Shown: positions 1-13,688 of the stretch, one piece after another
Layout of the letters: every line of letters begins with the position of its first letter
Numbering within the stretch: the stretch's first letter is position 1
NCBI GenBank assembly: GCA_036399055.1
Contig: DASWNX010000043.1
Span: 1 to 33,273 of the forward strand
Length of the DNA stretch: 33,273 nt
DNA from: Jatrophihabitans sp.
GTDB taxonomy: Bacteria; Actinomycetota; Actinomycetes; Mycobacteriales; Jatrophihabitantaceae
Direction of reading: 5' to 3'
Position numbers and translations under genes: made by a program
The notes under the pieces: generated by a model
The model's input: the letters and a program-made list of their open reading frames with translations, nothing else
Told to the model about the DNA's origin: nothing
Database searches by the model: none

Positions 1-1
1 C

Positions 2-778
2 GCCCAGGCCGACACGGACCAGCCGGGCGCCCGGCTGCTGCTGAACCGGTTCGCCGCCGGCGGCGGGGCGCTGCTGGACCTGGAGTACCTCACCGACGAC
101 AACGGCCGCCGGCTGGCGGCGTTCGGTTACTGGGCCGGCTACGTGGGCGCGGCCCTGGCGGTGCTGCAACACGCCGGCGCGCTGCAAGCGCCCTTGCAGC
201 CGGGGACCCGGCAGCAGTTGGACACCCAGCTGGCCACGGCGGCCGCCAGCGTGCCCGGACTGCGGGTGCTGGTGCTTGGCTCGCTCGGCCGCTCCGGCAG
301 CGGCGCCCGGGACGCCCTGGCAGCCGCCGGAGTGGCGATCACCGGATGGGATGTGGCCGAGACCCGGACGTTGGACCGGCCCGCGATGCTCGAGCACGAC
401 ATCGTCGTGAACACGGTGCTGACCACCGAGCCCGGCCGGCCGTACCTGAGCGCGGCCGACCTCATCGCAGCCGACTCAGCAGGCCGGCCCTACCGGCTGC
501 GAGTGCTGGCCGACGTCACCTGTGACGTCGGCTCGCCGTACAACCTGTTTCCGCTCTATCAGGACACCACGAGCTGGGAGCAGCCGGTCTTTGCGGTGCC
601 GGCGACCGAGCTGGCCGTCATCGCGATCGACAACCTGCCGTCACTGCTGCCACTGGAGGCAAGCATCACCTTCTCGGGCGACCTGCGGGGGCAGCTGTCC
701 GGGCTGGGCGCCCAGCCCGCCTGGCAGCGCTGCCTGGACCTGTTCCACCGCCACCTATCCACTCCGACAGGGAGCTGA
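2..778 (+). CDS. Saccharopine dehydrogenase, NAD+, L-lysine-forming (Lys1 type), 5'-truncated by the window
   Basis: The reading frame is open from base 2, so only the C-terminal ~258 residues are present; the family is about 370 aa. Family features visible are the stretch FGYWAGYVGAALAVL, the nucleotide-binding core around LRVLVLGSLGRSGSGA, and VTCDVGSPYNLFPLY near the C-terminus. All are typical of the alanine dehydrogenase/transhydrogenase-fold saccharopine dehydrogenases. The known reaction is the reversible conversion of saccharopine to lysine and 2-oxoglutarate with NAD+. The stop is followed after three bases by the start of the second saccharopine dehydrogenase, so the two are almost certainly co-transcribed. 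The physiological direction (lysine breakdown or supply of aminoadipate semialdehyde) is inference. Confidence 0.85.
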   Translation, partial: AQADTDQPGARLLLNRFAAGGGALLDLEYLTDDNGRRLAAFGYWAGYVGAALAVLQHAGALQAPLQPGTRQQLDTQLATAAASVPGLRVLVLGSLGRSGSGARDALAAAGVAITGWDVAETRTLDRPAMLEHDIVVNTVLTTEPGRPYLSAADLIAADSAGRPYRLRVLADVTCDVGSPYNLFPLYQDTTSWEQPVFAVPATELAVIAIDNLPSLLPLEASITFSGDLRGQLSGLGAQPAWQRCLDLFHRHLSTPTGS

Positions 779-781
779 CTG

Positions 782-1930
782 ATGCCTGAGCCGACCCCGC
801 CTGCCTCCGGTCCGACCATCCACTGGGTAGGCACCGGACTGTCCAGCGGCAGCGGACTGACCATGCTCGCCGGGCGTGGCCACCCGCTGGTGCTCTGGGG
901 CCGGACCGAGGAGAAGGCGGCGGCGCTGGCCGACCGGCTGGGGGTTCCGGTCGCTGCGAGCCGCGCTCTGCAACTACCGGCGCTGGCGGCCGAACTGGCG
1001 CCGGGCGACGTGCTGGTCTCGATGCTGCCGGCTGCCTGGCATGCCGAGCTGCTCGAGATCTGCCTGCAGACCGGGGCGCATTTCGCCTGCTCGAGCTACA
1101 CCTCGCCACAGCTGGCGGCCCTGGCCGAGCAGGCTCGCACGGCGGGGCTGGTGGTGCTGACCGAGGCCGGGTTGGACCCGGGCATCGACCACCTGCTGGC
1201 TCACCAGTTGATCGCTGAGGCCCTCGCCAAGGTCGGCGCCGGCCCTGCGACGGTGTCACTGACGTCCTACTGCGGTGGCGTGCCGGCAGTCGCCAACGAC
1301 TTTCGCTACCTCTTCAGCTGGGCGCCGCAGGGTGTGCTGACCGCGCTGCTCTCACCAGCTCGCTATCTCGACGGCGGCGAGGTCACCGAGGTGGCCAAGC
1401 CCTGGCATGCGGTTCGGCCGCACTCGGTGAACGGCGAGGATTTCGAGGTGTACCCGAACAGGGACAGCGTCCCGTTCATCGAGCAGTACGGCATCCCGAG
1501 CGGCTGGGAAGTGGAATCGTTCGTGCGTGGCACGCTGCGGCTGCCAGGCTGGCGCCAGGCCTGGCAACCAGTGTTCGACCAACTGGAATCACGCGGATCA
1601 GACTGCGTTCCCGAGCTCGCCGGCGAGTTGGCCCAGCGGTACCCGATGACCCCGACCGACCGGGATCGCGTGGTGCTCACCGTGGAGTTGGACGTGCGCG
1701 CCGAGCACGGCGCCACGTTCGGCGCCGGTCGGGTGCTGGACCTGATCGGTGATGACGCCGAGGCCGCGATGGCCCGTTGTGTCTCCGCTCCGTTGGCGAT
1801 CGGGGTCTGCCGGCTGCTGGACGGCGCGTTGCCGGCTGGGCTGAATCGGGCAGCCGAGACGGCGGACGAGGCCGGGGTGTGGCTGGACATGTTGTCCGAG
1901 CACTTCGCCATAGACATAGTGGGCGTGTAG
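782..1930 (+). CDS. Saccharopine dehydrogenase, L-glutamate-forming (Lys9 type)
   Basis: A 382 aa cytosolic Rossmann-fold oxidoreductase. The N-terminus IHWVGTGLSSGSGLTML resembles the glycine-rich start of bacterial saccharopine dehydrogenases. TEAGLDPGIDHLLAH at about residues 126-140 is the family's conserved central motif. The C-terminal half fits the saccharopine dehydrogenase substrate domain. The enzyme would cleave saccharopine to glutamate and 2-aminoadipate 6-semialdehyde, or run in reverse. ATG 782 has GGGAG about nine bases upstream and lies three bases after the Lys1-type gene. The pair therefore forms a complete saccharopine module, unusual for actinobacteria, which normally make lysine through diaminopimelate. 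It converges on the NRPS operon, so a link to that pathway is plausible but unproven. Confidence 0.87.
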   Translation: MPEPTPPASGPTIHWVGTGLSSGSGLTMLAGRGHPLVLWGRTEEKAAALADRLGVPVAASRALQLPALAAELAPGDVLVSMLPAAWHAELLEICLQTGAHFACSSYTSPQLAALAEQARTAGLVVLTEAGLDPGIDHLLAHQLIAEALAKVGAGPATVSLTSYCGGVPAVANDFRYLFSWAPQGVLTALLSPARYLDGGEVTEVAKPWHAVRPHSVNGEDFEVYPNRDSVPFIEQYGIPSGWEVESFVRGTLRLPGWRQAWQPVFDQLESRGSDCVPELAGELAQRYPMTPTDRDRVVLTVELDVRAEHGATFGAGRVLDLIGDDAEAAMARCVSAPLAIGVCRLLDGALPAGLNRAAETADEAGVWLDMLSEHFAIDIVGV

Positions 1931-2018: not shown

Positions 2019-5000
2019 TCAGGAGGTCGGCTGGACCTTCTCCTCGATCACGGCCGAGATGGCGCTCACCGTGGCGTTTCCGTACAACAGCCGAATGTTG
2101 ATCTTGATCCCGAAGGCCTTGTTGATCCGGCTCACCACCCGCATGGCCTGCAGGGAGTTGCCGCCGATGGCGAAGAAGCCGTCCTGCGCGCTGACCTTCG
2201 GCACCGACAACACGTCCGAGAAGACCTGGGCCACCGTCTCCTCGGTGGCGTTGGCCGGCGCCACGAAGGCGTCTTCGGACAGCTCCTGCTCCACCGGGTC
2301 CGGTAGTGCTTTGCGGTCGATCTTCCAGCCCCCGCTCAGCGGGAACTCCTCGAGCACCACCCAGGCGGTCGGAACCATGTAGTCCGGCAGCAGGCCGCCG
2401 AGGTGCGCGCGCAGCTCCTGCGGCACCGGCGGGCGCTGCCCCGAAGCGGTGACGTAGCCGACCAGTCGATTCTCCCCCTGCGGGTCCGGGCGTAGCAGCA
2501 CGACCGAGCGGCCCACGTCGGGATGGGTCAGCAACGCCCCCTCGATCTCGCCGAGTTCGATGCGCAGCCCGCGCAACTTGACCTGGTTGTCGACCCGGCC
2601 GATGAACTCGATCTGCAGGTCCTCGTTCCACCGGACCAGGTCACCGCTGCGGTACACCAACCGTCCGGGGTGATACGGGTCGGCGATGAACTTCTCCGCG
2701 GTGAGCTCGGGTTGATTCAGGTACCCCTGGGCCAGCCCGCCGTCCTCACCGCCGATCAGAAGCTCGCCGGGAACACCCTTGGGGACCAGGTTCTGCCGCT
2801 GGTCCACCACATACACCTGGCGGTTGACCTGGGGCCGGCCGATCGGCGGCGAGGTCTGCCAGTCGATGTGCGGGCACTTGTACTCGGTGCAGGCGATGGC
2901 GGCCTCGGTCGGGCCGTAGAGGTTGACGAACGTGCGGCCGGGCAGGTTCCACTTGTTCACCAGCTCCGGCGGCAGGACCTCAGCGCCTCCCATCACGTAC
3001 TTCAGGTTCGGGTAGGGCTCGGCCTCCAGCACCGAGAGAATCGCCGGCGGCAGACCTGCGTAGCTGACTCGCTGCTCACGCATCAGCGTCATCAGGCCCT
3101 CTGGTGACAGCGCCTCCTCCGCCCCGACCGCGACCACCGTCGCACCGACCAGGAAGCCAGTCCACAGTTCGCCCTGCGACATGTCGAAGGACAGCGAGGG
3201 CAACTGGAGCAACCGGTCCTGCGGGCCGAAGTCATAGGTCCGCCGGTAGCCCTCGGCGAACAGCGACACCGCGCGATGAGCGATCATCACTCCCTTGGGA
3301 GTCCCGGTCGAGCCCGAGGTGTAGAGGATGTAGGCCAGGGAGTCGGCAGTCGACCATTCCTCGAGCGGCTCGTCGGCCGGCATGGCCTCGATGGCGGGCC
3401 AATCGGCGTCGATCAGCACTCGCTGCCAGCCGGTGGGCTCCGGCAGCCGGTCAGCCAGATCCGAACGGGTGATCACGATCGGCGCGGCGGTGTCGCCGAT
3501 CATGAAGGCCAGCCGGTTGGCCGGAAGCTTGGGGTCCAGCATGGTGAAGGTGGCCCCGGCCATGAGGATGCCGAGCATGGTGACGTAGGCGTCGAGGTCA
3601 CGGTCGATGACGACCGCGATCACCTGCTCGCGCCGTAGGCCGAGCGAACGCAGGTAGCGGGCCAGCTGGCCGGCCTGCCGGACGAACTCGCCGTAGCTGA
3701 GCTCCACGCCGTTGCAGACCAGCGCCACCGCGTCGGGGGTCCTGGCGGCGACGGCCGCGACCGCGGCATGCAGCGGTAGCTCGTTGTAAGCGACGACCTC
3801 GCCCCGCCCGACGGCCAGCAGCTCCGCCTTCTCGTCTTCGGTGACGACCGGTATCTGCGACAGCCGCAGCGCCGGGTCGGCCGTCGCTGTGCGCAGCACG
3901 CTCTCGACATGTCCGAGCATGGCCTTGATTCGCCACTCGTCGAACAGCGCGGTGGAGTACTCGACCCCCGTCAGGAGCCCGGCCGGCGTGTCGATGAAGG
4001 TCAGCGCGAGGTCGAAGCGGGCGCTGACCGAGGCAAGCAGCAGGTAGTCCGCGCTCACCCCTGGCAGCGAGAGGCTTTCTCCGGACGTGGCGCCCCCCAG
4101 CAGTTGCGCAGCGACCTGGAACAGCGGGTTGCGGTCGGGGTCACGCACCGGCTGCACCCGGTCCACGACCTGGTGGAAGGGCACTTCTTGGTGCTCGTAG
4201 AGGTCCAGGTTGAGGTCAGCGACCCGGTCCAGCAGCTCCGCGAACGAGGGGTCGCCGGACAGGTCTGACCTCAGCACGACCATGTTGATGAACAGGCCGA
4301 CGACATCCTCGAGCTCGGGCTCGGGACGGCCCAGCATCGGCACCCCGATCGGGATGTCCTCCTGGCCGCTGTACCGGCTCAGGACCACGGCCAACGCGGT
4401 GGCCAGCACCATGAACAGCGAGGCCCCGTGCTCGTCGGCCAACTGCTGGGCGGCCTCACGCAAGCCTGGGGGAAAGGGGGAGAGCACCGAGTCGCCGCGG
4501 TGGTCGCCGCCCACCGGCCGCGGCCGGTCGGTGGGCAGCTCGAGCACCGGCAGGCCTGCCAGCCGCTCCTGCCAGAAGGCCAGTTCCTCCTCGAGTGCCT
4601 CGCCCTGCAGTCGCTCCCGCTGGGACTGGGCGTAGTCGAGGTAGCTGACTTCGGGATCGTCCAGTTGCGGGTCATCGCCTTCGAGCAGCGCCCGATAGGT
4701 AGCCGAGATCTCGGAGTTAATGATCGCCGAGGACCAGCCGTCGGTGACGATGTGGTGATAGCCCTGGCACAGCACGTACTGCTCGTCTGCCAGCTGGAAC
4801 AACTGGAATCGGTACAGCGGGCCGGTCTTGAGGTCGAAGGGCACCGTGAGCTGCTCACGAAGCGCCGACTGCAGGCCTTGCTCGCGTTCGGCCTCCGGGA
4901 GCGGCCTGAGGTCGAGGATCGGCAGCTCGACCGGGGCAGGCGGGGAGACCACCTGATAGGGCGTGCCGTCCTCGGTCTGGATCGTCACCCGGAGCACCTC

Positions 5001-5228
5001 GTGCCTGGTGATGACCAGGGTCAGACAACGGCGCAGGATGTCGATGTCCAGCGGGCCCTGCACGCGCCAGGACTGGAGGATGTTGTAGGTGGTCTGCCCA
5101 GGCGCCAGCTGGTCGATGAACCACAGCTGTTCCTGACCGAAGGAAAGCGGTCGTAGAGGTAGCCCCGTCTCGGCCTGGGTCCGGCCGTCGCCCAGGTCGG
5201 AGAGGTTCCGGTCCGTGTCGAGTGTCAT
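2019..5228 (-). CDS. Monomodular non-ribosomal peptide synthetase, C-A-PCP
   Basis: A 1069 aa single-module NRPS. The condensation domain (about 24-450) has HHIVTDG at 158-164, so its catalytic His is intact. The adenylation domain (about 480-975) has core A3 YTSGSTGTPKG at 636-646, A4 FDMSQGE at 681-687, YGPTE at 771-775, YRSGDL at 859-864, and the A10 lysine at 969 in GWKIDRKALP. The carrier protein (about 990-1065) has FFAIGGNSL with attachment Ser1025. The specificity residues I read by hand alignment to GrsA are D-M-G-G-V-G-L-I-A-K; I do not recognise a matching substrate. No thioesterase, reductase or terminal condensation domain follows the carrier protein, and there is no MbtH-like gene nearby. 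The start lies 12 bases after the PLP-enzyme stop. It is the last gene of a five-gene operon. An upstream donor for the condensation domain, or a transfer or release partner, must be encoded elsewhere. Confidence 0.95.
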   Translation of the reverse strand: MTLDTDRNLSDLGDGRTQAETGLPLRPLSFGQEQLWFIDQLAPGQTTYNILQSWRVQGPLDIDILRRCLTLVITRHEVLRVTIQTEDGTPYQVVSPPAPVELPILDLRPLPEAEREQGLQSALREQLTVPFDLKTGPLYRFQLFQLADEQYVLCQGYHHIVTDGWSSAIINSEISATYRALLEGDDPQLDDPEVSYLDYAQSQRERLQGEALEEELAFWQERLAGLPVLELPTDRPRPVGGDHRGDSVLSPFPPGLREAAQQLADEHGASLFMVLATALAVVLSRYSGQEDIPIGVPMLGRPEPELEDVVGLFINMVVLRSDLSGDPSFAELLDRVADLNLDLYEHQEVPFHQVVDRVQPVRDPDRNPLFQVAAQLLGGATSGESLSLPGVSADYLLLASVSARFDLALTFIDTPAGLLTGVEYSTALFDEWRIKAMLGHVESVLRTATADPALRLSQIPVVTEDEKAELLAVGRGEVVAYNELPLHAAVAAVAARTPDAVALVCNGVELSYGEFVRQAGQLARYLRSLGLRREQVIAVVIDRDLDAYVTMLGILMAGATFTMLDPKLPANRLAFMIGDTAAPIVITRSDLADRLPEPTGWQRVLIDADWPAIEAMPADEPLEEWSTADSLAYILYTSGSTGTPKGVMIAHRAVSLFAEGYRRTYDFGPQDRLLQLPSLSFDMSQGELWTGFLVGATVVAVGAEEALSPEGLMTLMREQRVSYAGLPPAILSVLEAEPYPNLKYVMGGAEVLPPELVNKWNLPGRTFVNLYGPTEAAIACTEYKCPHIDWQTSPPIGRPQVNRQVYVVDQRQNLVPKGVPGELLIGGEDGGLAQGYLNQPELTAEKFIADPYHPGRLVYRSGDLVRWNEDLQIEFIGRVDNQVKLRGLRIELGEIEGALLTHPDVGRSVVLLRPDPQGENRLVGYVTASGQRPPVPQELRAHLGGLLPDYMVPTAWVVLEEFPLSGGWKIDRKALPDPVEQELSEDAFVAPANATEETVAQVFSDVLSVPKVSAQDGFFAIGGNSLQAMRVVSRINKAFGIKINIRLLYGNATVSAISAVIEEKVQPTS

Positions 5229-5240
5229 GTGTGAGCAGAC

Positions 5241-6353
5241 CTATTCTGTGAGCCGTGTCAAGCCGGTGAGAACGCCCTCGATCCGCGCCAAGCCCTCGGC
5301 CAGGACGGCGGGCTCGCGCGCGAAGCTGATTCTGATGCCGCCTGTGGTCCCCAGTGTCTCAGCTGGCATCAACAGCACGCCTGTCTCCAGCACCTGCCTG
5401 GCGAATGCCATCGACGAGCCGCCCGTCAGCAGACGCAACCACGCGAAAGGGGTCCCTTCCGGCGGCGTCAACCGCAGCAGGTCGGAGTGGCGCGCGGTGA
5501 ACTCCTGCAGCAAGCCCAGCCCGGCGCCGGTCAAGCGCTGGTACTGCCGCTCGTACCGGTCCCAGTGCCGCAGCACGTCGGCCGCGAGGGCCTCGCACAG
5601 CACGGAGTTGGAGATCGTGGTCAGGTGCTTGTACTCCGCGCAGGCCGACACCACCTCGGGTGGGCCGTACATCCACCCGACACGCAGGCCGGGGACGCCG
5701 GCGGTCTTGGACAGGCTCGACACCGAGATGGCGCGGTCGTGGAGCACTGCCGGCGAGGTCGAGAGGTCCAGCAGGTACTCCTCGTCCACCACCAGGTAGG
5801 CGTCAGCGCGTTCGGCCAGCTCGAGCAGCGCCGTGAACTCCTCGGCGCGGATCCGCCGGCCGGTCGGGTTCGTCGGGCTGTTGACCGTGATGAGCCGCAG
5901 GCCACTCGGGTCGACCTCGGCGAGCTCGGCGAGGTCGATGCTGAAGTCCTCGGCAAGGTCCATGACCTCTACCCGGCATCCCAGGCGTTGCGGCGCCTGC
6001 CAGGCCTGCTGCCATCCCGGGCGAAACGCGATCACCCGATCGCCGGGCCGCAACAGCGTGCAGTACAGGAGGTAGAGCGCTTCCTGGGCGCCATGGGTTA
6101 TCACCACATGCTCAGGTGAGCCGCCGTAGCGCTGTGCCACCAACCGGATGAGCTCGGGGCTGCCTCGATCGAAGCCGTAGTTGAGCTCGAGGTCAGCAGA
6201 GATCTGGAACTGCCCGACGGTGCTGCACTGCACGTGGCTGTCGCCGAGGTCGATGTCGAACTTGCCGATCGTCTCCTCGAAGACCCAATGCCGCATGGAG
6301 CCCAGCTCGCCGGCCGCGCCAGCCTCAGCGATGGCGTTGGCAGCCGCGGTCAT
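5241..6353 (-). CDS. Fold-type I PLP-dependent aminotransferase-like enzyme
   Basis: A 370 aa class I/II aminotransferase-fold protein. Visible PLP-site elements are NSPTNPTG at 158-165, the aspartate in VVDEEYLL at 189-196, and the Schiff-base lysine K216 in SSLSKTAGVPGLRVGW. An arginine near the C-terminus in GGIRISFA would bind the substrate carboxylate. The N-terminal region (HVQCSTVGQF..LELNYGFDRGSPELI) is reminiscent of capreomycidine synthase (VioD)-type PLP enzymes, which cyclise a beta-hydroxylated arginine; this is from memory and not aligned. With a 2OG hydroxylase two genes upstream, either side-chain chemistry on a hydroxylated amino acid or plain transamination is possible. The start ATG overlaps the stop of the DapF-like gene (ATGA), so translation is probably coupled. 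Confidence 0.85.
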   Translation of the reverse strand: MTAAANAIAEAGAAGELGSMRHWVFEETIGKFDIDLGDSHVQCSTVGQFQISADLELNYGFDRGSPELIRLVAQRYGGSPEHVVITHGAQEALYLLYCTLLRPGDRVIAFRPGWQQAWQAPQRLGCRVEVMDLAEDFSIDLAELAEVDPSGLRLITVNSPTNPTGRRIRAEEFTALLELAERADAYLVVDEEYLLDLSTSPAVLHDRAISVSSLSKTAGVPGLRVGWMYGPPEVVSACAEYKHLTTISNSVLCEALAADVLRHWDRYERQYQRLTGAGLGLLQEFTARHSDLLRLTPPEGTPFAWLRLLTGGSSMAFARQVLETGVLLMPAETLGTTGGIRISFAREPAVLAEGLARIEGVLTGLTRLTE

Positions 6354-7231
6354 GCCGGCACGGCTGAGGCTCGTGAGACTCCGATCCGTTCGCCGAGGGT
6401 GGCCGAGAAATCACCGGTCGCCACCTTTTCGACGATGCCGGTCATCGTGACGCACTGGTCGGCGCCGATGCTGATCTGCAATTGCCCGCCGGGCATCTGC
6501 ACCGTGAGCTCGTCATCGACCAGGCCGGCCAGGTGTGCCGCGCTGGCCACAGCGCAGCCACTGCCTCCGGAGGCCAGCGTGTAACCGGCGCCCCGCTCCC
6601 AGATCTCGACCTCGATCAGGCGGCGGTCGCGCACGCGGGCGAATTCCACATTGGTCCGATCCGGGAACCGGGGGTGCCGCGCGATCTGGGGTCCGAGCTC
6701 GCGCGCCCGGTCAGCGCTCAACTCGTCGAGAAACACCACAGTGTGCGGGTTGCCGTTGTGGACGCAGGTCGCCGTCACCTGCTCGCCGTCGAGGTCGAGC
6801 GTCCAGTCGATCGCCGGTCCGGACAGCCCGAGCACGGGGATCGCGCCGGCCTCGAAGGACGGCCGGCCGAGATTGACCCGCACCAGGCCGGCGGAGAAGT
6901 CGGCGATCTCCACCAGCGAGTCCCCGGCCGGGGTGCGGATCGTGAAGCTGGTGGCGTCGAGGTGGTGCTCGGCAAGGTGCAGGGCGAACATCCGCACCCC
7001 GTTCGCGCTGAGACCGCAGGTGGTGCCGTCGGAGTTCAGAGTCACCAACTCCACCGGCTGGCCAGCCTGGACCGGCTTGACGGGCCCGTACATGACACCG
7101 TCGGCGCCGATGCCGAAGTGCCGGTCACACAGCTGCCGGGCTGCTGCCGGGGACGGCTCCCACTTCACCTGCTGCGGGTCGAGGACGAGGTAGTCGTTGC
7201 CCAACGCCTGGTACTTGACGAAGTCCGCCAC
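6350..7231 (-). CDS. Diaminopimelate epimerase-fold protein with both catalytic Cys replaced by Ser
   Basis: A 293 aa protein of the DapF fold, full length for the family. Substrate-binding landmarks are kept: GND at 11-13, NSDG at 66-69, GNPH at 160-163, TNVEF at 193-197, and ERGAG at 212-216. Canonical DapF uses two cysteines in a two-base mechanism, in the CGNG and LACGTG motifs. Here these read SANG (S75) and LASGGSG (S221), and the Glu of GAGET is Tyr217. Related folds with Ser or Thr at one position are known, such as hydroxyproline dehydratases, and PhzF isomerases lack the Cys pair. Racemase, isomerase or dehydratase activity on an amino acid is therefore all open. It is unlikely to be the housekeeping DapF. 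The GTG start lies three bases after the dioxygenase stop. Confidence 0.88.
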   Translation of the reverse strand: MADFVKYQALGNDYLVLDPQQVKWEPSPAAARQLCDRHFGIGADGVMYGPVKPVQAGQPVELVTLNSDGTTCGLSANGVRMFALHLAEHHLDATSFTIRTPAGDSLVEIADFSAGLVRVNLGRPSFEAGAIPVLGLSGPAIDWTLDLDGEQVTATCVHNGNPHTVVFLDELSADRARELGPQIARHPRFPDRTNVEFARVRDRRLIEVEIWERGAGYTLASGGSGCAVASAAHLAGLVDDELTVQMPGGQLQISIGADQCVTMTGIVEKVATGDFSATLGERIGVSRASAVPA

Positions 7232-7234
7232 GTG

Positions 7235-7975
7235 TCAGCCGGTCCCGTTGAGCGCACCAGCATTCTGGGGAACGGTCGCCGGGGGCTCGTCCTCCAGGAC
7301 GGCCTTGTCATGCTCCTCGCCGTACCACTTGTCCTTCCAGCGGGAGAAGGCGACGATCACGATGTCTCGGTGCGCGGGCTGACCGTCGACCGAGAGCACG
7401 TCGGTGACGTCGTGCGCGATCGCCCGGTCGTCCAGCAGCACGGCCTGCCCGGCCTCCAGGGTTCCGGTCCAGAAGGGCGCCGGCGCGCCGTCGTGCCACA
7501 GCCGGGTCTGCGCGCCGGCCACATTGACCTTGCGCAGCACGGCGATCATGACGAACTCGTGCCCGTCGTGATGGACCCCTTCGGGGGTCAGCGGCGCCGC
7601 CGTGCTCTCATCAGCCCGCGAGCGGTTCTGATGGACGTTGATCTGCCAGTCCTCGCTCTGGTCCAGCCCCAGTTCGGCGACGCCGTGCGCGATGAGCGGG
7701 GTGAGGTCGGCCTCGATCGGCTCGTAGGTCCGCTTGATCCCGCCGCCGACCGGGTTGAACTTCTTGAAGGCCGTGTAGTCACGGTGCTCAAGCCGCTCGA
7801 ACGACCAGCCGTTGGCGGCTTGGGCGTCTGGTGTCAGGCGGTACTGCGCGAACCGCTTGTACCGGGTGCCGTGGCCCATGTACTCGTCGACCGGGCAGTT
7901 CTCGTAGCTGTCAAGGACCTCGCTGGGGACCGGCGGGAGGTCGATCACTGCGAATCCTTGCGGGTTGAGCGGCAT
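7235..7975 (-). CDS. 2-oxoglutarate/Fe(II) dioxygenase of the L-isoleucine 4-hydroxylase type
   Basis: A 246 aa soluble protein of the bacterial 2OG-Fe dioxygenase family that includes free amino acid hydroxylases such as Bacillus isoleucine dioxygenase. The iron-binding facial triad is visible as H135-x-D137 in GVHHDGHEF and the distal H188 in AIAHDV. R203 in AHRDIVIVAF would bind the 2-oxoglutarate carboxylate. Family members hydroxylate, desaturate or sulfoxidise aliphatic amino acids such as Ile, Leu and Met. Here the likely role is C-H oxidation of an aliphatic or basic amino acid before loading by the NRPS; the substrate is unknown. ATG 7975 is preceded by AGGAAGG at a good distance. 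It lies 43 bases after the diiron oxidase gene and three bases before the DapF-like gene. Confidence 0.9.
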   Translation of the reverse strand: MPLNPQGFAVIDLPPVPSEVLDSYENCPVDEYMGHGTRYKRFAQYRLTPDAQAANGWSFERLEHRDYTAFKKFNPVGGGIKRTYEPIEADLTPLIAHGVAELGLDQSEDWQINVHQNRSRADESTAAPLTPEGVHHDGHEFVMIAVLRKVNVAGAQTRLWHDGAPAPFWTGTLEAGQAVLLDDRAIAHDVTDVLSVDGQPAHRDIVIVAFSRWKDKWYGEEHDKAVLEDEPPATVPQNAGALNGTG

Positions 7976-8018
7976 TTCTCATGCCCTTCCTCTTGCGGGG
8001 GAACGGGGGGTCAGGCGG

Positions 8019-9077
8019 TCAGCTGGCTGCCGAAGGCATGCGCTCGTCCAGGTAGCGCGCCGAGGAGTTCAGCCGCCACAGTGTGCCTCGGGCGATTCCG
8101 TGGCGCATGTGGGGGGACTTGGCGGCAGGCAGCACGACGTTGTGAAACCAGCCGGCGGCGTGCTGGGAGTCGATGGTCACGTGCAGCTTGTGGTAAATGA
8201 CACCGCTGGGGGGCAGTCCGAGCCGGTCCCAGGCATGCAAGACATGCACGAACCGGTCGGGGACCAGCCACTCCAACATTCCCATGAAGCCGACTGCCTC
8301 GGCGTAGAACTGCCGATAGCGGCAGAGCATGACAGCGAGATTGCCCGACAGCAGGGCGTTGGCCGTCAGCGACTCTTCGAACTCGTCTGCCTGGACGTCG
8401 AACACCTTGAAGATGTTGTTGAACAGGTGGGTGTGGACCTGGTGCTTGTCACCGTTGCCCATCTCGTCCCAGAAGTTATTGGCGATCTCCATCTTGGCCG
8501 CGCCGTTAGTGCCGACCTGCATCATGGCCAGCAGATCGTCGAACCGCCCGTCGACGACGGACTCCTGGATCATGTAGGAGCGCAAATCCTCGGCCGTGGC
8601 GTGGTTACGGATGAAGTCCTTGTAGTAGGGGTGCTTGTACACGGGATGCTCTTTGGCGGTCCGCTTGATCCACGAGAGGTAGGGACGGGGCTCGTCCGGG
8701 CTGGACTCGATCAGGCCCGGCTCGATGTCGGCGTCCTGGGCGGCGATGGTCGCCTGTTCCAGCAACCGCGTGACCTCGTGCAGCGCTATCGACCCCTCCG
8801 CGGTCGCGCCGTCGGGTATCACCGTGTGGAGCTGGTAGATGCGCGCCAGCAGGAACTGCTGGGCGTAGAAGGCGTCGGCGTCGCCGGCCTGCGCCCGATT
8901 GTTCAGCGCGGTGACCGCGGTACGGATCCTGCGCCGCTCGGCCGCCGGCACGTTGCGGTCGACCTCATCGGCCGACTGGCCCAGCCAGGACGAGATCTCC
9001 TCAACCAGGTCAGGGCGTACGCCGTTCCGCCCTGTTCGCGAATTCGGTCCGGGTTCGGCTTCGGTGACGGCGCGCAT
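8019..9077 (-). CDS. Haem-oxygenase-like diiron oxidase/oxygenase (HDO superfamily)
   Basis: A 352 aa, mostly helical protein. The metal-ligand pattern of HDO enzymes can be read: E172 in QESVVD, E205 and H215 in DEMGNGDKHQVH, E260 in YAEAVGF, then H299-x3-D303-x2-H306 in HKLHVTIDSQH. The H-x3-D-x2-H spacing is that of the diiron site of SznF. Superfamily members catalyse N-oxygenation (SznF, RohS), oxidative C-C cleavage (UndA, BesC) and azetidine formation (PolF), typically on free or tailored amino acids. About 150 N-terminal residues precede the core. First gene of the five-gene operon. ATG 9077 has a purine-rich GAGGGAG site about eight bases upstream. The exact reaction cannot be told from sequence. 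Confidence 0.88.
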   Translation of the reverse strand: MRAVTEAEPGPNSRTGRNGVRPDLVEEISSWLGQSADEVDRNVPAAERRRIRTAVTALNNRAQAGDADAFYAQQFLLARIYQLHTVIPDGATAEGSIALHEVTRLLEQATIAAQDADIEPGLIESSPDEPRPYLSWIKRTAKEHPVYKHPYYKDFIRNHATAEDLRSYMIQESVVDGRFDDLLAMMQVGTNGAAKMEIANNFWDEMGNGDKHQVHTHLFNNIFKVFDVQADEFEESLTANALLSGNLAVMLCRYRQFYAEAVGFMGMLEWLVPDRFVHVLHAWDRLGLPPSGVIYHKLHVTIDSQHAAGWFHNVVLPAAKSPHMRHGIARGTLWRLNSSARYLDERMPSAAS

Positions 9078-9787: not shown

Positions 9788-10483
9788 TCAGGCCACGGAG
9801 TAAGGGGCCCCGATAATCCATCCATCGGGCTGGGGCTGGGGCAGGGTCATCTCGATGATCTCCGCGGCGTCCCCGACCCTGATCACCCCGCCCTGGGCGA
9901 CCCAGCAATTGAGGGCGAGCCTGCCGGCGAACTCATAGTGAATCTTGCGCAGGACGTTGAGGTCCTGCTCGCCGGTGTCGGGGTCGATGGTGGTCACGAT
10001 GCAGCGTGACCTGAGGGAGTACAGCCCGATGAGCACCTCGCCGATCCGCAGCACCTTGCCCGGCCAGGATCGCTCCTGCAGGCCCGGCACGCCCCCGATC
10101 ACGATGTTCGGCCGCAGCCGGCGCCCGTTGTAGCCGAACGCCTGCACGCCCCCGTCGGTGGCGACCAGCAGCGGCAGCACGTCGAAGCGCTCGTGCCCGG
10201 AGTAGTAGACCGCTTCGGCGCCCGGACCGGCCGCCTCACGGATGGCTTGTGCCGCTGCCGGGTCATTCCACGGGACGCCCTCGATCAGGGCCGTCCCGTC
10301 CGCGGCGGTCGACCCGGTGAGGCCGAGCAGGCGGGGCCTGGTCCGGCCGGTGACCACATGGGCGTGCTGGCGGACGTGCACGAGCCGGTCACCGACCACA
10401 CCGTCCTCGGTCAGCACGGCCGACTCGAGCGGCTCTCCTCGTAGCGACTTGACAGGAAATCGCCATAACTGCTCTACATGCAC
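9788..10483 (-). CDS. MOSC domain-containing protein (mARC-like)
   Basis: The protein has an N-terminal MOSC beta-barrel segment (VEQLWRFPVKSLRGEPL and EDGVVGDRLVHV) followed by the MOSC domain. The conserved cysteine in SRCIVTTIDPDTGEQD matches the RC-x-x-TT-x-DP-x-TG motif of mARC/YcbX-type proteins, where Cys carries the molybdenum cofactor. Such proteins reduce N-hydroxylated compounds or deliver sulfur. I place the start at GTG 10483 (231 aa) because AGGTGG lies seven bases upstream and the conserved region begins at once. An in-frame extension to 10603 adds 40 residues with no family similarity. It lies 0.7 kb upstream of, and on the same strand as, the NRPS operon. A role in reducing an N-oxygenated intermediate is conceivable but speculative. 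Confidence 0.82.
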   Translation of the reverse strand: MHVEQLWRFPVKSLRGEPLESAVLTEDGVVGDRLVHVRQHAHVVTGRTRPRLLGLTGSTAADGTALIEGVPWNDPAAAQAIREAAGPGAEAVYYSGHERFDVLPLLVATDGGVQAFGYNGRRLRPNIVIGGVPGLQERSWPGKVLRIGEVLIGLYSLRSRCIVTTIDPDTGEQDLNVLRKIHYEFAGRLALNCWVAQGGVIRVGDAAEIIEMTLPQPQPDGWIIGAPYSVA

Positions 10484-10620
10484 GCTGGCCCACCTGGCAG
10501 GTTCGGTTTCTCGATCATATGAGGCACTCTCTGCAATTGCCGCGAACCGGGGTTCGCCGCCTTCCAGAGGATGGCAGGTGCGGCTGAGGTTCACAACCGT
10601 CAATGGCCTTAGCCCGGTGC

Positions 10621-10694
10621 GGGCGCTTAGCTCAGCCGCAGACGGCTCGGTTCACATCCGCGCGGTCGTTGGTTCGATCCCAACAGCGCCCACC
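10621..10694 (+). tRNA. tRNA-Val(CAC)-like sequence, degenerate, possibly a pseudogene
   Basis: The acceptor stem is perfect (GGGCGCT with AGCGCCC, then A and CC). The T arm is perfect (GTTGG-TTCGATC-CCAAC). The anticodon loop TTCACAT would give anticodon CAC (valine), with T33 and A37 correct. The anticodon stem CTCGG/CCGCG has one mismatch. The D arm is abnormal: GCTC does not pair with its expected partner, the conserved GG of the D loop is missing, and an AGCCG-CAGA-CGGCT hairpin can form instead. CCA is not fully encoded. Total length to A73 is 72 bases. Either a very divergent functional tRNA or a decayed copy. Confidence 0.55.
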
Positions 10695-10799
10695 GGCGGT
10701 TTCACCGAGCCGCACGGCTAGGGTGGAACCGGTGCGCCGGGAAGCCTGGTCGGCAGTGGTTTCGTTCTGCCCGCCGCGTCTTCCTAGTCTCGGAGCGTC

Positions 10800-12260
10800 A
10801 TGTCTGACACCTTTACCTTCGCGCAGCTGGTCCTGCTGGTGGGCGCGGTCGGCCTGCTGGCGCTGCTGTCCAACCGGTTGACCGAGCGGATCCGGATTCC
10901 GGCGCCGCTGCTGGTGCTGGTTGCCGCCGCAGTAGCGGTGCAAGTGATTCCGGAACTGCATCGTCCCCCCGAGCTGCTGGTGGAACGGCTGGTCACCCTG
11001 GCCTTGATCTGCATCCTGTTCGACGGTGGCCTGCATCTGGGCTGGCCAAAGTTCCGGGCCGCCGCCGCGCCGATAGCGATAGTGGGGGTGCTGGGCACTT
11101 TTCTCACCACCGCAGTCGCCGCAGCGTTCATCCACTACGCCTTCGGGCTCAGCTGGTTCCTAGCCTTGCTGGTCGCCACCGCGATCTCGCCGACCGACCC
11201 GGCGGTGGTGTTCTCGGTTTTGGGCCGGCGTGAGGTCGCTGGGCGCAGCGGCACCATCTTGGAGGGCGAGTCCGGGGCCAACGACCCGGTTGGCATCGCC
11301 CTGATGGCCAGCCTGATCGCGGCCGGCGGGATCAGCACCGGCGCGTTCGGGCAGATCGCTGGCGAGTTCGCCCTGCAGATGGGCATCGGCGCGGCAGTGG
11401 GGGTCCTCGGCGGCCGGGCGCTGCTGTGGTTTATGCGGGCGGTGCCGCTGCCGAGCGAGGGCCTGTACCCGTTGCGGACCGCCGCTTGTGCGCTGATCCT
11501 GTTCGGCGCTGCCACCCTGGCCCACGGCTCCGGTTTTTTGGCGGTCTTTGTGGCCGGTATTCTTCTTGGCGACGAGCGGGCGCCGTATAAGCGCGAGATC
11601 GAGCGGTTTCACTCGGCACTGGCCAGCCTCGGCGAGATCGTCGCCTTCGTGGTGCTGGGCTTGACCGTCGACCTGGCCGAGCTGACCCACGCCGACGTGC
11701 TGATCCCGGGATTGGTCACCGGTGCGGTGTTGGCCGCGGTGATCCGACCGGTCTTCGTAGGGCTCTGCCTGATCTCCGCGCGGCTGAGAAGTAATGAGCG
11801 CAACTTCGTGCTGTTCGCCGGACTCAAGGGCGCCGTGCCGATCCTGCTCGGCAGTTTCATCCTGGCCGAGCAGGTGCCTGACGCTGAACGGCTCTACGGC
11901 ATCGTCGTGGTGGTGGTGCTGTTCTCGGTGCTGCTGCAGGGCAGCCTGGTGCCGACCGTCGCGCGGCTGCTGCGGCTGCCGATGCGCGTCGTCGAGCCGG
12001 AACCGTGGGCCATCGGGGTGCGGCTGAGAAACGAGCCTGAGGGCGTGCACCGCTTCACCGTGACGGCCGGCGCACCCGCGCACGGACACCGGATCGACGA
12101 GCTGCACGACCTGCCCGAGGACGCCTGGATCAGCTTCGTGGTGCGCGATGACCGGTTGTTGCCGGTCCGTGGTGACAGCTTGCTGCAAGCCGGGGACGAG
12201 GTGCTGGTGCTGGCCGACCCGAGCCTGCGTGACCGGCTGGTCGCCACGTTCAACGGTTGA
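10800..12260 (+). CDS. Potassium/proton antiporter, CPA1 family, with TrkA-C domain
   Basis: A 486 aa integral membrane protein with about 12 hydrophobic segments over residues 1-395. ATAISPTDPAVVFSVL (about 130) and ESGANDPVGIAL (about 158) are the antiporter core motifs of NhaP/CvrA-type exchangers; the ND pair is typical of CPA1. The last ~85 residues (HRFTVTAGAPAHGHRIDELHD onward) form a cytosolic TrkA-C/RCK_C domain, which often binds nucleotides such as c-di-AMP. It exports K+ (or Na+) in exchange for H+. ATG 10800 has CGGAG about seven bases upstream. It is convergent with a TrkH K+ uptake channel, so the pair would set cellular K+. Confidence 0.9.
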   Translation: MSDTFTFAQLVLLVGAVGLLALLSNRLTERIRIPAPLLVLVAAAVAVQVIPELHRPPELLVERLVTLALICILFDGGLHLGWPKFRAAAAPIAIVGVLGTFLTTAVAAAFIHYAFGLSWFLALLVATAISPTDPAVVFSVLGRREVAGRSGTILEGESGANDPVGIALMASLIAAGGISTGAFGQIAGEFALQMGIGAAVGVLGGRALLWFMRAVPLPSEGLYPLRTAACALILFGAATLAHGSGFLAVFVAGILLGDERAPYKREIERFHSALASLGEIVAFVVLGLTVDLAELTHADVLIPGLVTGAVLAAVIRPVFVGLCLISARLRSNERNFVLFAGLKGAVPILLGSFILAEQVPDAERLYGIVVVVVLFSVLLQGSLVPTVARLLRLPMRVVEPEPWAIGVRLRNEPEGVHRFTVTAGAPAHGHRIDELHDLPEDAWISFVVRDDRLLPVRGDSLLQAGDEVLVLADPSLRDRLVATFNG

Positions 12261-12289
12261 CCCGCCCTGCCTGATCTCGACTCAAGGTG

Positions 12290-12308
12290 GGCTAAGGCGG
12301 CCTTAGCC
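12290..12308. terminator. Palindromic bidirectional terminator
   Basis: GGCTAAGGC-G-GCCTTAGCC is a perfect 9 bp inverted repeat with a one-base centre. It lies 30 bases beyond the antiporter stop and overlaps the TAA of the convergent trkH-type gene, so one element could end both transcripts. Confidence 0.6.
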
Positions 12309-13676
12309 GATGATGGGCTGCTCCTTGGGGAGCTCATACAGCCTGGTGGTGTGCCGCAGTGCCAGGGCAGAGGCAAGGGTGACGGGTCCGACCCTGCCCA
12401 AGAACATCAGCAGCACCAGGATGAGTTGGCCGGCGACCGGCAGGTCGGGGGTGATGCCGGTGCTCAGGCCGACGGTGGCGAAGGCGGAGATGACCTCGAA
12501 CAGGATTCGGTCGAGGCTGAACTCGGTCATGATCAGCAGCGCCACAGTCGAGGTCACCACGACCGCGACCGCGAGCAGGGCCACGGTGGCCGCTTGGCGG
12601 TGAGTGGAGCGGGGCAGTCGCTTGCCCAGGGCGTTGACCGCGCCGTCGCCGCGGAGCTCGCTGTAGATGATGAAGTACAGCACCGCGAAGGTGGTGACCT
12701 TCAGCCCGCCGGCGGTGCCGGCCGGGCCGCCGCCGATGAACATCAGCACGTCCATGCCCAGCCAGGTCGCCGAGTCGAGTGCGCCGATGTCGACGCTGTT
12801 GAAGCCGGCGGTACGGGTGATCACGGCCTGGAAGAAGCCGGCTAGCAGCCGGCCGCCGGGGCTCAGTTTGCCCAGGGTGTCATCGTTGTTCCACTCCATC
12901 GCGGTGATGAAGGCGGTGCTGCTGACCAGCAGGGCGGCAGTGGTGGCCAGCACCAGCCGGGTGTTGAGCGTCCACAGGCGCGGGCGGGTGATCTCTCTGC
13001 GCAGCTGCAGCAGCACCGGAAAGCCGAGGCCGCCGGCGATCACCGCGAAGGCGATCGGCAGGCAGATCCACGGATCGGCGGCAAAGTCCACCAGGTTGTC
13101 CTCGAAGAGTGAGAAGCCGGCGTTGTTGAACGCCGAAACTGCGTGAAACACCCCGTGCCACAGCGCCTGGCCGGCAGGTTCCTGATAGCCGAAGTAGAAC
13201 CGCGTAGTCAGGGCGGCGGCGGCCAGCGCCTCGAGCAGCAAGCTGGCCAGCACGACGCCGACGATCACCCTGCGGACGTCGCCGATGCCGATGCTGCGGG
13301 TCTCGGCAGCCGCCGTGATGCGGCTGCGCAGGCCCAGCCGCCGTGACACCAGCAGCCCCAGCAGCGAGGCCAGCGTCATGACCCCGAAGCCGCCGACCTG
13401 GATCAGGGCAAGGATCACCACCTGGCCGAACACGCTCCAGTAGGTCGCAGTGTTGACGACCAGGTGCCCGGTCACGCACACCGCCGAGGTGGCGGTGAAC
13501 AAGGCCTCCATCAAGCTGGCGTGCCCGGGCCCGGGCGTCGCCGCCGGCAGCAAAAGCAGCGCGGTGCCGACCGCGGTGGCTGCGGCAAAGGCTAGGACGA
13601 TGACCTGCGCCGGATTGCGCAGCCCGTGGCTGCGCCGTCCGGTGCTGGGCGGCCCGGCCGGGCTCCGAAGGCGCAT
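12303..13676 (-). CDS. TrkH/KtrB-family potassium uptake channel subunit
   Basis: A 457 aa polytopic membrane protein. The four pore-loop repeats of the Trk/Ktr family are visible: SAVCVTGHLVV (about 89-99), SAFNNAGFSLF (about 184), ITRTAGFNSVD (about 290) and SAFATVGLSTGIT (about 397). Each carries the selectivity-filter glycine. It forms the membrane pore for K+ (and perhaps Na+) uptake and normally needs a cytosolic TrkA/KtrA ring, which is not encoded beside it. ATG 13676 has no Shine-Dalgarno sequence but has TAGCAT six bases upstream, consistent with leaderless transcription. Convergent with the K+/H+ antiporter. Confidence 0.93.
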   Translation of the reverse strand: MRLRSPAGPPSTGRRSHGLRNPAQVIVLAFAAATAVGTALLLLPAATPGPGHASLMEALFTATSAVCVTGHLVVNTATYWSVFGQVVILALIQVGGFGVMTLASLLGLLVSRRLGLRSRITAAAETRSIGIGDVRRVIVGVVLASLLLEALAAAALTTRFYFGYQEPAGQALWHGVFHAVSAFNNAGFSLFEDNLVDFAADPWICLPIAFAVIAGGLGFPVLLQLRREITRPRLWTLNTRLVLATTAALLVSSTAFITAMEWNNDDTLGKLSPGGRLLAGFFQAVITRTAGFNSVDIGALDSATWLGMDVLMFIGGGPAGTAGGLKVTTFAVLYFIIYSELRGDGAVNALGKRLPRSTHRQAATVALLAVAVVVTSTVALLIMTEFSLDRILFEVISAFATVGLSTGITPDLPVAGQLILVLLMFLGRVGPVTLASALALRHTTRLYELPKEQPIIG

Positions 13677-13682
13677 CCGCCG

Positions 13683-13688
13683 ATGCTA
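13683..13688 (-). promoter_or_regulatory. Putative -10 (TAGCAT), leaderless start of the TrkH gene
   Basis: TAGCAT fits TANNNT and lies exactly six bases before ATG 13676 on the minus strand, putting the predicted transcription start on or next to the start codon. No ribosome-binding site is seen. Confidence 0.5.

Follow-up and report, generated by a model that had tools for sequence, protein, structure and literature searches.

What does a compact operon make that joins two oxygen-activating iron enzymes to a DapF-like protein with serines in place of its catalytic cysteines, a pyridoxal phosphate (PLP) enzyme and a one-module non-ribosomal peptide synthetase (NRPS)? The question is raised by 33,273 nucleotides of contig DASWNX010000043.1 of Jatrophihabitans sp. 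(this whole stretch is hereafter the window), where the five genes run on the minus strand from 9077 to 2019. Homology to hormaomycin and belactosin genes indicates that the operon very probably makes a rare nitrocyclopropane amino acid from lysine, and it is likely that the two iron enzymes supply this compound and that the PLP enzyme and NRPS process the product. The genes concerned, together with a possible extra member upstream, are as follows.

8019..9077, minus strand: haem-oxygenase-like diiron enzyme (HDO), homologue of HrmI and BelK (PF14518, E 9.8e-37)
7235..7975, minus strand: Fe/2-oxoglutarate (2OG) oxygenase, homologue of BelL and HrmJ (PF10014, E 2.4e-45)
6350..7231, minus strand: DapF-like protein of the belM/hrmT type, GTG start (PF01678, E 4.2e-43)
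5241..6353, minus strand: fold-type I PLP enzyme, GntC/VioD-like (PF00155, E 2.4e-34)
2019..5228, minus strand: NRPS with a single condensation (C), adenylation (A) and peptidyl carrier protein (PCP) module (Condensation, AMP-binding and PCP matches)
9788..10603, minus strand: MOSC_N plus MOSC protein, mARC/YcbX-like (Pfam), possible extra member upstream of the operon

The original prediction, made from the DNA letters and a list of open reading frames, had described these five genes as one unit. The frames confirm the single strand, the coordinates and the gaps of 43, 3, -4 and 12 bases, and the family names agree with Pfam and NCBIfam. All five frames are open with intact active-site residues, and the start of the PLP gene overlaps the DapF-like gene by 4 bases. 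Of 29 related loci, found in a scan with the window 2OG protein and described here from mechanical gene calls, 14 show the identical gene order; the arrangement therefore goes beyond chance, and a lack of co-occurrence is excluded. This supports the earlier proposal of a conserved, compact route that includes a carrier-protein module and yields a non-proteinogenic amino acid. The accompanying statement that no described cluster holds this combination has to be divided: the first three genes are the known hormaomycin/belactosin cassette, whereas the PLP and NRPS ending appears new as far as the open-licence literature was searched, no description of it having been found in the available text of those sources.

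A probable route from lysine to a nitrocyclopropane

Since the first three genes are homologues of hormaomycin and belactosin genes, a reaction can be predicted for each of the two iron enzymes. According to the available part of the review PMC10764440, BelK and HrmI convert L-lysine into L-6-nitronorleucine, and BelL, HrmJ and other homologues convert 6-nitronorleucine into nitrocyclopropylalanine (Ncpa) through a C6 nitronate; the available part of PMC13108848 assigns BelK and HrmI a six-electron N-oxygenation of lysine. The window HDO matches HrmI (PDB 9n1a) over residues 40-346 (phmmer E 1.7e-69). Among 31 aligned proteins, the candidate ligands E172, E205 and H215 are kept in all, and H299, D303 and H306 in 30, the lone exception being taken to be the frameshifted HDO of locus L017. 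On the HDO pattern, we take these six residues to be the 3-His/3-carboxylate metal ligands. The L017 gene, from Streptomyces tailanensis (L017:3599-4586), matches in two frames, an apparent frameshift in the assembly.

The window 2OG protein matches a solved "BsmA domain containing protein" (8jms/9dq0) at E about 1e-117, and its H135, D137, H188 and R203 (an HxD...H motif plus Arg) are kept in 31 of 31 aligned proteins. Both steps have been shown in the literature for homologues, and homology extends them to the window: the HDO is predicted to convert L-lysine into L-6-nitronorleucine, and the 2OG enzyme is predicted to form the nitrocyclopropane. With good confidence, we expect the latter to abstract a C4 hydrogen, so that C4 would close onto the C6 nitronate to give 3-(2-nitrocyclopropyl)alanine, that is, Ncpa.

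The review PMC10764440, in its available part, ties 2OG position 136 to stereochemistry, with His in BelL and Arg in HrmJ. The window enzyme has His here; nevertheless, its ring stereochemistry is not readable from His136, because the 9dq0 protein, likewise His-His-Asp, may be a cis-former. Our guess is that this protein is the ScBelL of PMC10764440. A five-gene relative (L010) encodes a 2OG protein with 219 of 230 residues identical to 9dq0 by hand count, and the solved enzyme therefore belongs to the five-gene kind of cluster.

A DapF-like protein with serine at both catalytic positions

The third protein scores 201 bits against TIGR00652 (cut-off 114.65), which places it in the DapF fold and family, and it shares the invariant residues N12, N66, N194, E212 and R213 with housekeeping DapF (L113 was excluded from this residue comparison). 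However, A72, C75 and C221 of housekeeping DapF are replaced by C72, S75 and S221, and Phe14 by Tyr; both catalytic cysteines are thus serines, as the original prediction had stated. The Ser/Ser pair is present in the window and in 28 of 28 relatives' cassettes with a DapF match, which form one clade, and Cys72 occurs in every Ser-type copy inspected. In contrast, housekeeping DapFs keep Cys/Cys in all 24 genomes inspected (25 such loci). The inspection omitted four matches without loci: G053:C81, G055:C62, and G045:C22 and G042:C137, which appear to correspond to the copies in L013 and L005 that were inspected elsewhere as cassette DapFs. A literature search for a Ser-for-Cys DapF listed one paper, on a histidine racemase, and one for HrmT gave no further result.

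An altered lysine-pathway enzyme seems to have gained a new job. Given that 6-nitronorleucine is a nitro isostere of diaminopimelate (DAP), one carboxylate being replaced by NO2, a nitronate-forming role is proposed. We suggest, tentatively, that the Ser/Ser protein does not epimerize DAP and instead binds 6-nitronorleucine in its retained head-group pocket, where it could generate or keep the C6 nitronate that the 2OG enzyme uses.

Two other roles were weighed. The protein might be an isomerase of Ncpa or 6-nitronorleucine, epimerizing the alpha- or the nitro-carbon by means of its serines or the new Cys72. The fold family includes many racemases and isomerases, and the constancy of Cys72 would suit such a role, but no stereochemical need for it is known; by the available account in PMC10764440, ring stereochemistry is set by the 2OG enzymes themselves, and we consider an isomerase doubtful. 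The other role is the published one: the available part of PMC10764440 names belM/hrmT as the third shared gene pair, which "may encode" lysine-supplying DAP epimerases. A lysine-boosting epimerase in the window, coupled with a PLP enzyme that is an ordinary aminotransferase, is unlikely. The TIGR00652 score and the five shared invariants fit an epimerase, but the cassettes carry Ser/Ser where each of the 24 genomes inspected holds a Cys/Cys DapF, so that lysine supply is already covered.

The PLP and NRPS ending

The aminotransferase half of that alternative, in which the PLP enzyme would remove or reset the alpha-amino group of Ncpa, bears on the fourth gene. Its product has the GntC/VioD-like fold and the PLP lysine, and the fold suits aminotransferases too. 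In the structural comparison, however, GntC (guanitoxin), a gamma-eliminating cyclase, is the top match for its model, tied with one unassigned aminotransferase, and the cyclases OrfR and VioD are also among the leading matches, which speaks against an ordinary aminotransferase. Like the window enzyme, GntC and VioD have a partner 2OG oxygenase; a literature search on GntC listed no paper. Despite the shared fold, the window enzyme scores below the NCBIfam cut-offs for both GntC (223 bits against 415) and VioD (203 bits against 390.9), and its expected substrate is Ncpa, not hydroxyarginine.

The gene neighborhoods add to this. PLP relatives at least 50% identical adjoin a 2OG gene in 12 of 12 cases, five candidates having been scored per genome, so that weaker ones may be missed. 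The DapF and PLP genes adjoin in 22 loci, and in 17 of these they overlap by 4 bases. Among the 29 loci, the PLP gene (22) and a molybdopterin oxidoreductase gene (7) are mutually exclusive. From structure and exclusivity together, the PLP enzyme probably represents a third fate of Ncpa; on balance, we expect it to act on free Ncpa, perhaps through gamma-carbon chemistry.

A bolder reading joins the third and fourth genes. The DapF fold would have become a nitronate-forming proton transferase, the acidic C6-H of 6-nitronorleucine needing no thiolate pair, and would pass the nitronate to the 2OG enzyme; the PLP enzyme would then open Ncpa by expelling the nitronate carbon from the gamma position, and a new ring would form through oxygen in a biological Cloke-Wilson-type rearrangement. 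The resulting new amino acid, an isoxazoline N-oxide, would be the one that the NRPS loads. This joint reading is a long shot, since it requires both inferred steps to be right at once.

Alternatively, the ring might be closed by the PLP enzyme itself. In the window's subfamily, the 2OG enzyme would merely hydroxylate C4, and the PLP enzyme would act in GntC fashion. The GntC substrate is a gamma-hydroxy amino acid, and two loci (L146, L147) have a PLP gene overlapping a PF10014 oxygenase gene without an HDO. On the other side, tested BelL homologues form the ring directly and a synthetic 4-hydroxy compound yielded no Ncpa (available part of PMC10764440), and the belactosin-like loci lack a PLP gene of the window's family; PLP ring closure is accordingly decidedly improbable. 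The two loci are of interest in their own right. In L146:8820-10558 and L147:8943-11787, the oxygenase gene overlaps the PLP homologue by 4 bases, with no HDO or DapF match, and the two-gene unit of L147 is followed by AzlC/AzlD exporter genes; these are possibly unrecognized amino-acid pathways. A 440-residue frame behind the L146 PLP gene looks spurious.

The fifth gene encodes C, A and PCP domains, with the motifs HHIVTDG (HHxxxDG) and GGNSL, and, as had been predicted, the protein has no thioesterase domain. Its A-domain code, with positions placed by hand, is DMGAMGLI, and DMGAMGL[IV] is found in the window, in the first NRPS of all 14 five-gene relatives and in a second locus of the same genome; it is absent from seven A-like domains in 60 kb of a hormaomycin-like contig. 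The A domain may take Ncpa, the product of the PLP enzyme or some other acid. Gene calling gave a thioesterase (TE)-family gene at the second locus and in 10 of the 14 relatives with the five genes (Pfam was run on the L029 copy), and release is therefore probably in trans. Following the preferred route from lysine through Ncpa, the A domain would thus reasonably be expected to activate the product of the PLP enzyme and load it on the PCP, from which a separate thioesterase would release it.

One cassette, several endings

The relatives fall into five types by gene content. Type A has the window order HDO-2OG-DapF-PLP-NRPS (L005, L007, L014, L016, L020 and L029), mostly with a TE and/or major facilitator superfamily (MFS) gene; the L014 stretch stops after the NRPS. 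Type B (L003, L004, L006, L008-L011 and L015), which includes the 8jms/9dq0-like 2OG proteins, shares with the window the five genes in the same order and the A code but differs in having a serine hydroxymethyltransferase-family gene, a second NRPS and usually a TE gene. The second NRPS has the A code DMYALGLI, and we assume that the additional gene perhaps encodes a threonine-transaldolase-like enzyme. The available open-licence literature that was searched gave no product for type B. Type C (L012, L013, L017-L019, L021 and L030), called belactosin-like by gene content only, carries the molybdopterin oxidoreductase (7 of 29 relatives; Pfam-checked on one). Type D (L022, L024 and L025) joins HDO-2OG-DapF-PLP to an EamA-family transporter gene, with no NRPS match. 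Type E (L023, L026-L028 and L031) has the 2OG gene first and an HDO 37-42% identical to that of the window. In two type E loci (L023:13779-15158 and L027:13800-15152), a gene after the PLP gene encodes a conserved protein (about 450 residues, with 63% identity between the two copies), for which Pfam gives no match in L023.

The two characterized pathways can be set beside these types. Hormaomycin (hrmI-hrmJ-hrmT) resembles the window in its homologous HDO, 2OG and DapF-like genes, its Ncpa building block and its use of NRPSs, and a hormaomycin-like locus (L095 and L108, on one contig) has an HDO 40% and a 2OG protein 42% identical to those of the window and a Ser/Ser DapF. The differences are that the 20-kb L095 stretch gave no match to the window's PLP family, that the hormaomycin NRPS is large and multimodular rather than one C-A-PCP module, and that the A codes differ. 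Belactosin (belK-belL-belM) shares the same three homologous genes, and the belactosin-like loci are closer (HDO 64-69%, 2OG 67-69% identical), but they carry the molybdopterin oxidoreductase, which is not among the window genes scanned. According to the available part of PMC10764440, belactosin uses ATP-grasp ligases.

In a tree of 30 2OG proteins, the window groups with type A and B members (94/90), and in one of 30 HDO proteins with type B and C members and two of type A (84/80); both placements involve long branches and modest support, and L017 was excluded from both trees. The 2OG protein (E up to 1e-25) was found in 2 of 396 Actinomycetota genomes, its own and one with a 38% match that has no HDO in the 3.7 kb fetched around it. 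In Streptomyces, it occurs in 18 of 392 genomes (20 matches, partly the same loci as in the 29-locus scan). The 16 that are at least 65% identical have an adjacent HDO in 16 of 16 cases and an adjacent DapF in 15 of 16. Among the remaining four, L094 has HDO and NRPS neighbors and looks hormaomycin-like, and the other three show no HDO match in the stretch fetched.

The second locus of the window's genome (G000:C46:69063 onward, L040/L041) reads HDO-2OG-PLP-NRPS-TE-MFS, without DapF. Its 2OG protein has Gln at position 136 instead of His, and the products of the two loci may therefore differ in stereochemistry. The genome was found to hold just two DapF genes, the Ser/Ser one of the window and one Cys/Cys. 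The other cassette without a DapF match, L012, comes from a strain that also holds L011, which has DapF; both DapF-less cassettes therefore have another copy available. That the window operon is a non-functional remnant of the more complete second locus, as the missing TE and MFS genes and the unrelated convergent genes that follow might suggest, is very improbable given its five open frames with intact active sites, the just 61% identity of the two NRPSs and its possession of the genome's only Ser/Ser DapF found.

Of the neighboring genes, the MOSC gene is the possible addition. Its protein, which probably starts near 10483, is 61% identical over 230 residues to one encoded beside the MFS gene in the Longispora cluster L029, with no match in the other loci compared, and could reduce an N-oxygenated intermediate. 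A saccharopine dehydrogenase (782-1930, plus strand) and a 211-residue frame (143-778, plus strand) were rejected as pathway members, being convergent to the operon and having no match in the other loci compared; that a gene of a lysine-metabolism family faces a lysine-using operon is probably a coincidence. In eight congeners, no HDO comes closer than 38%, and neither the MOSC protein nor the saccharopine dehydrogenase has a match. The window has a tRNA-Val at 10621-10694. In congener G002, an NhaP-TrkH block lies 2.5 kb beyond tRNA-Val, and window 1-755 matches the far side of this block; the comparison (window 1-755 and 10621-13688; L129) therefore points to a rearranged, variable site at the tRNA. 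The remaining window genes are mostly core genes.

The nitrocyclopropane cassette of hormaomycin and belactosin thus opens a broader group of pathways that end in several ways, the PLP and NRPS ending among them. A cassette with such varied endings gives the search for natural products with nitro or nitro-derived amino acids something concrete to aim at, and the loss of both catalytic cysteines in every cassette DapF inspected makes the role of this DapF homologue directly testable.
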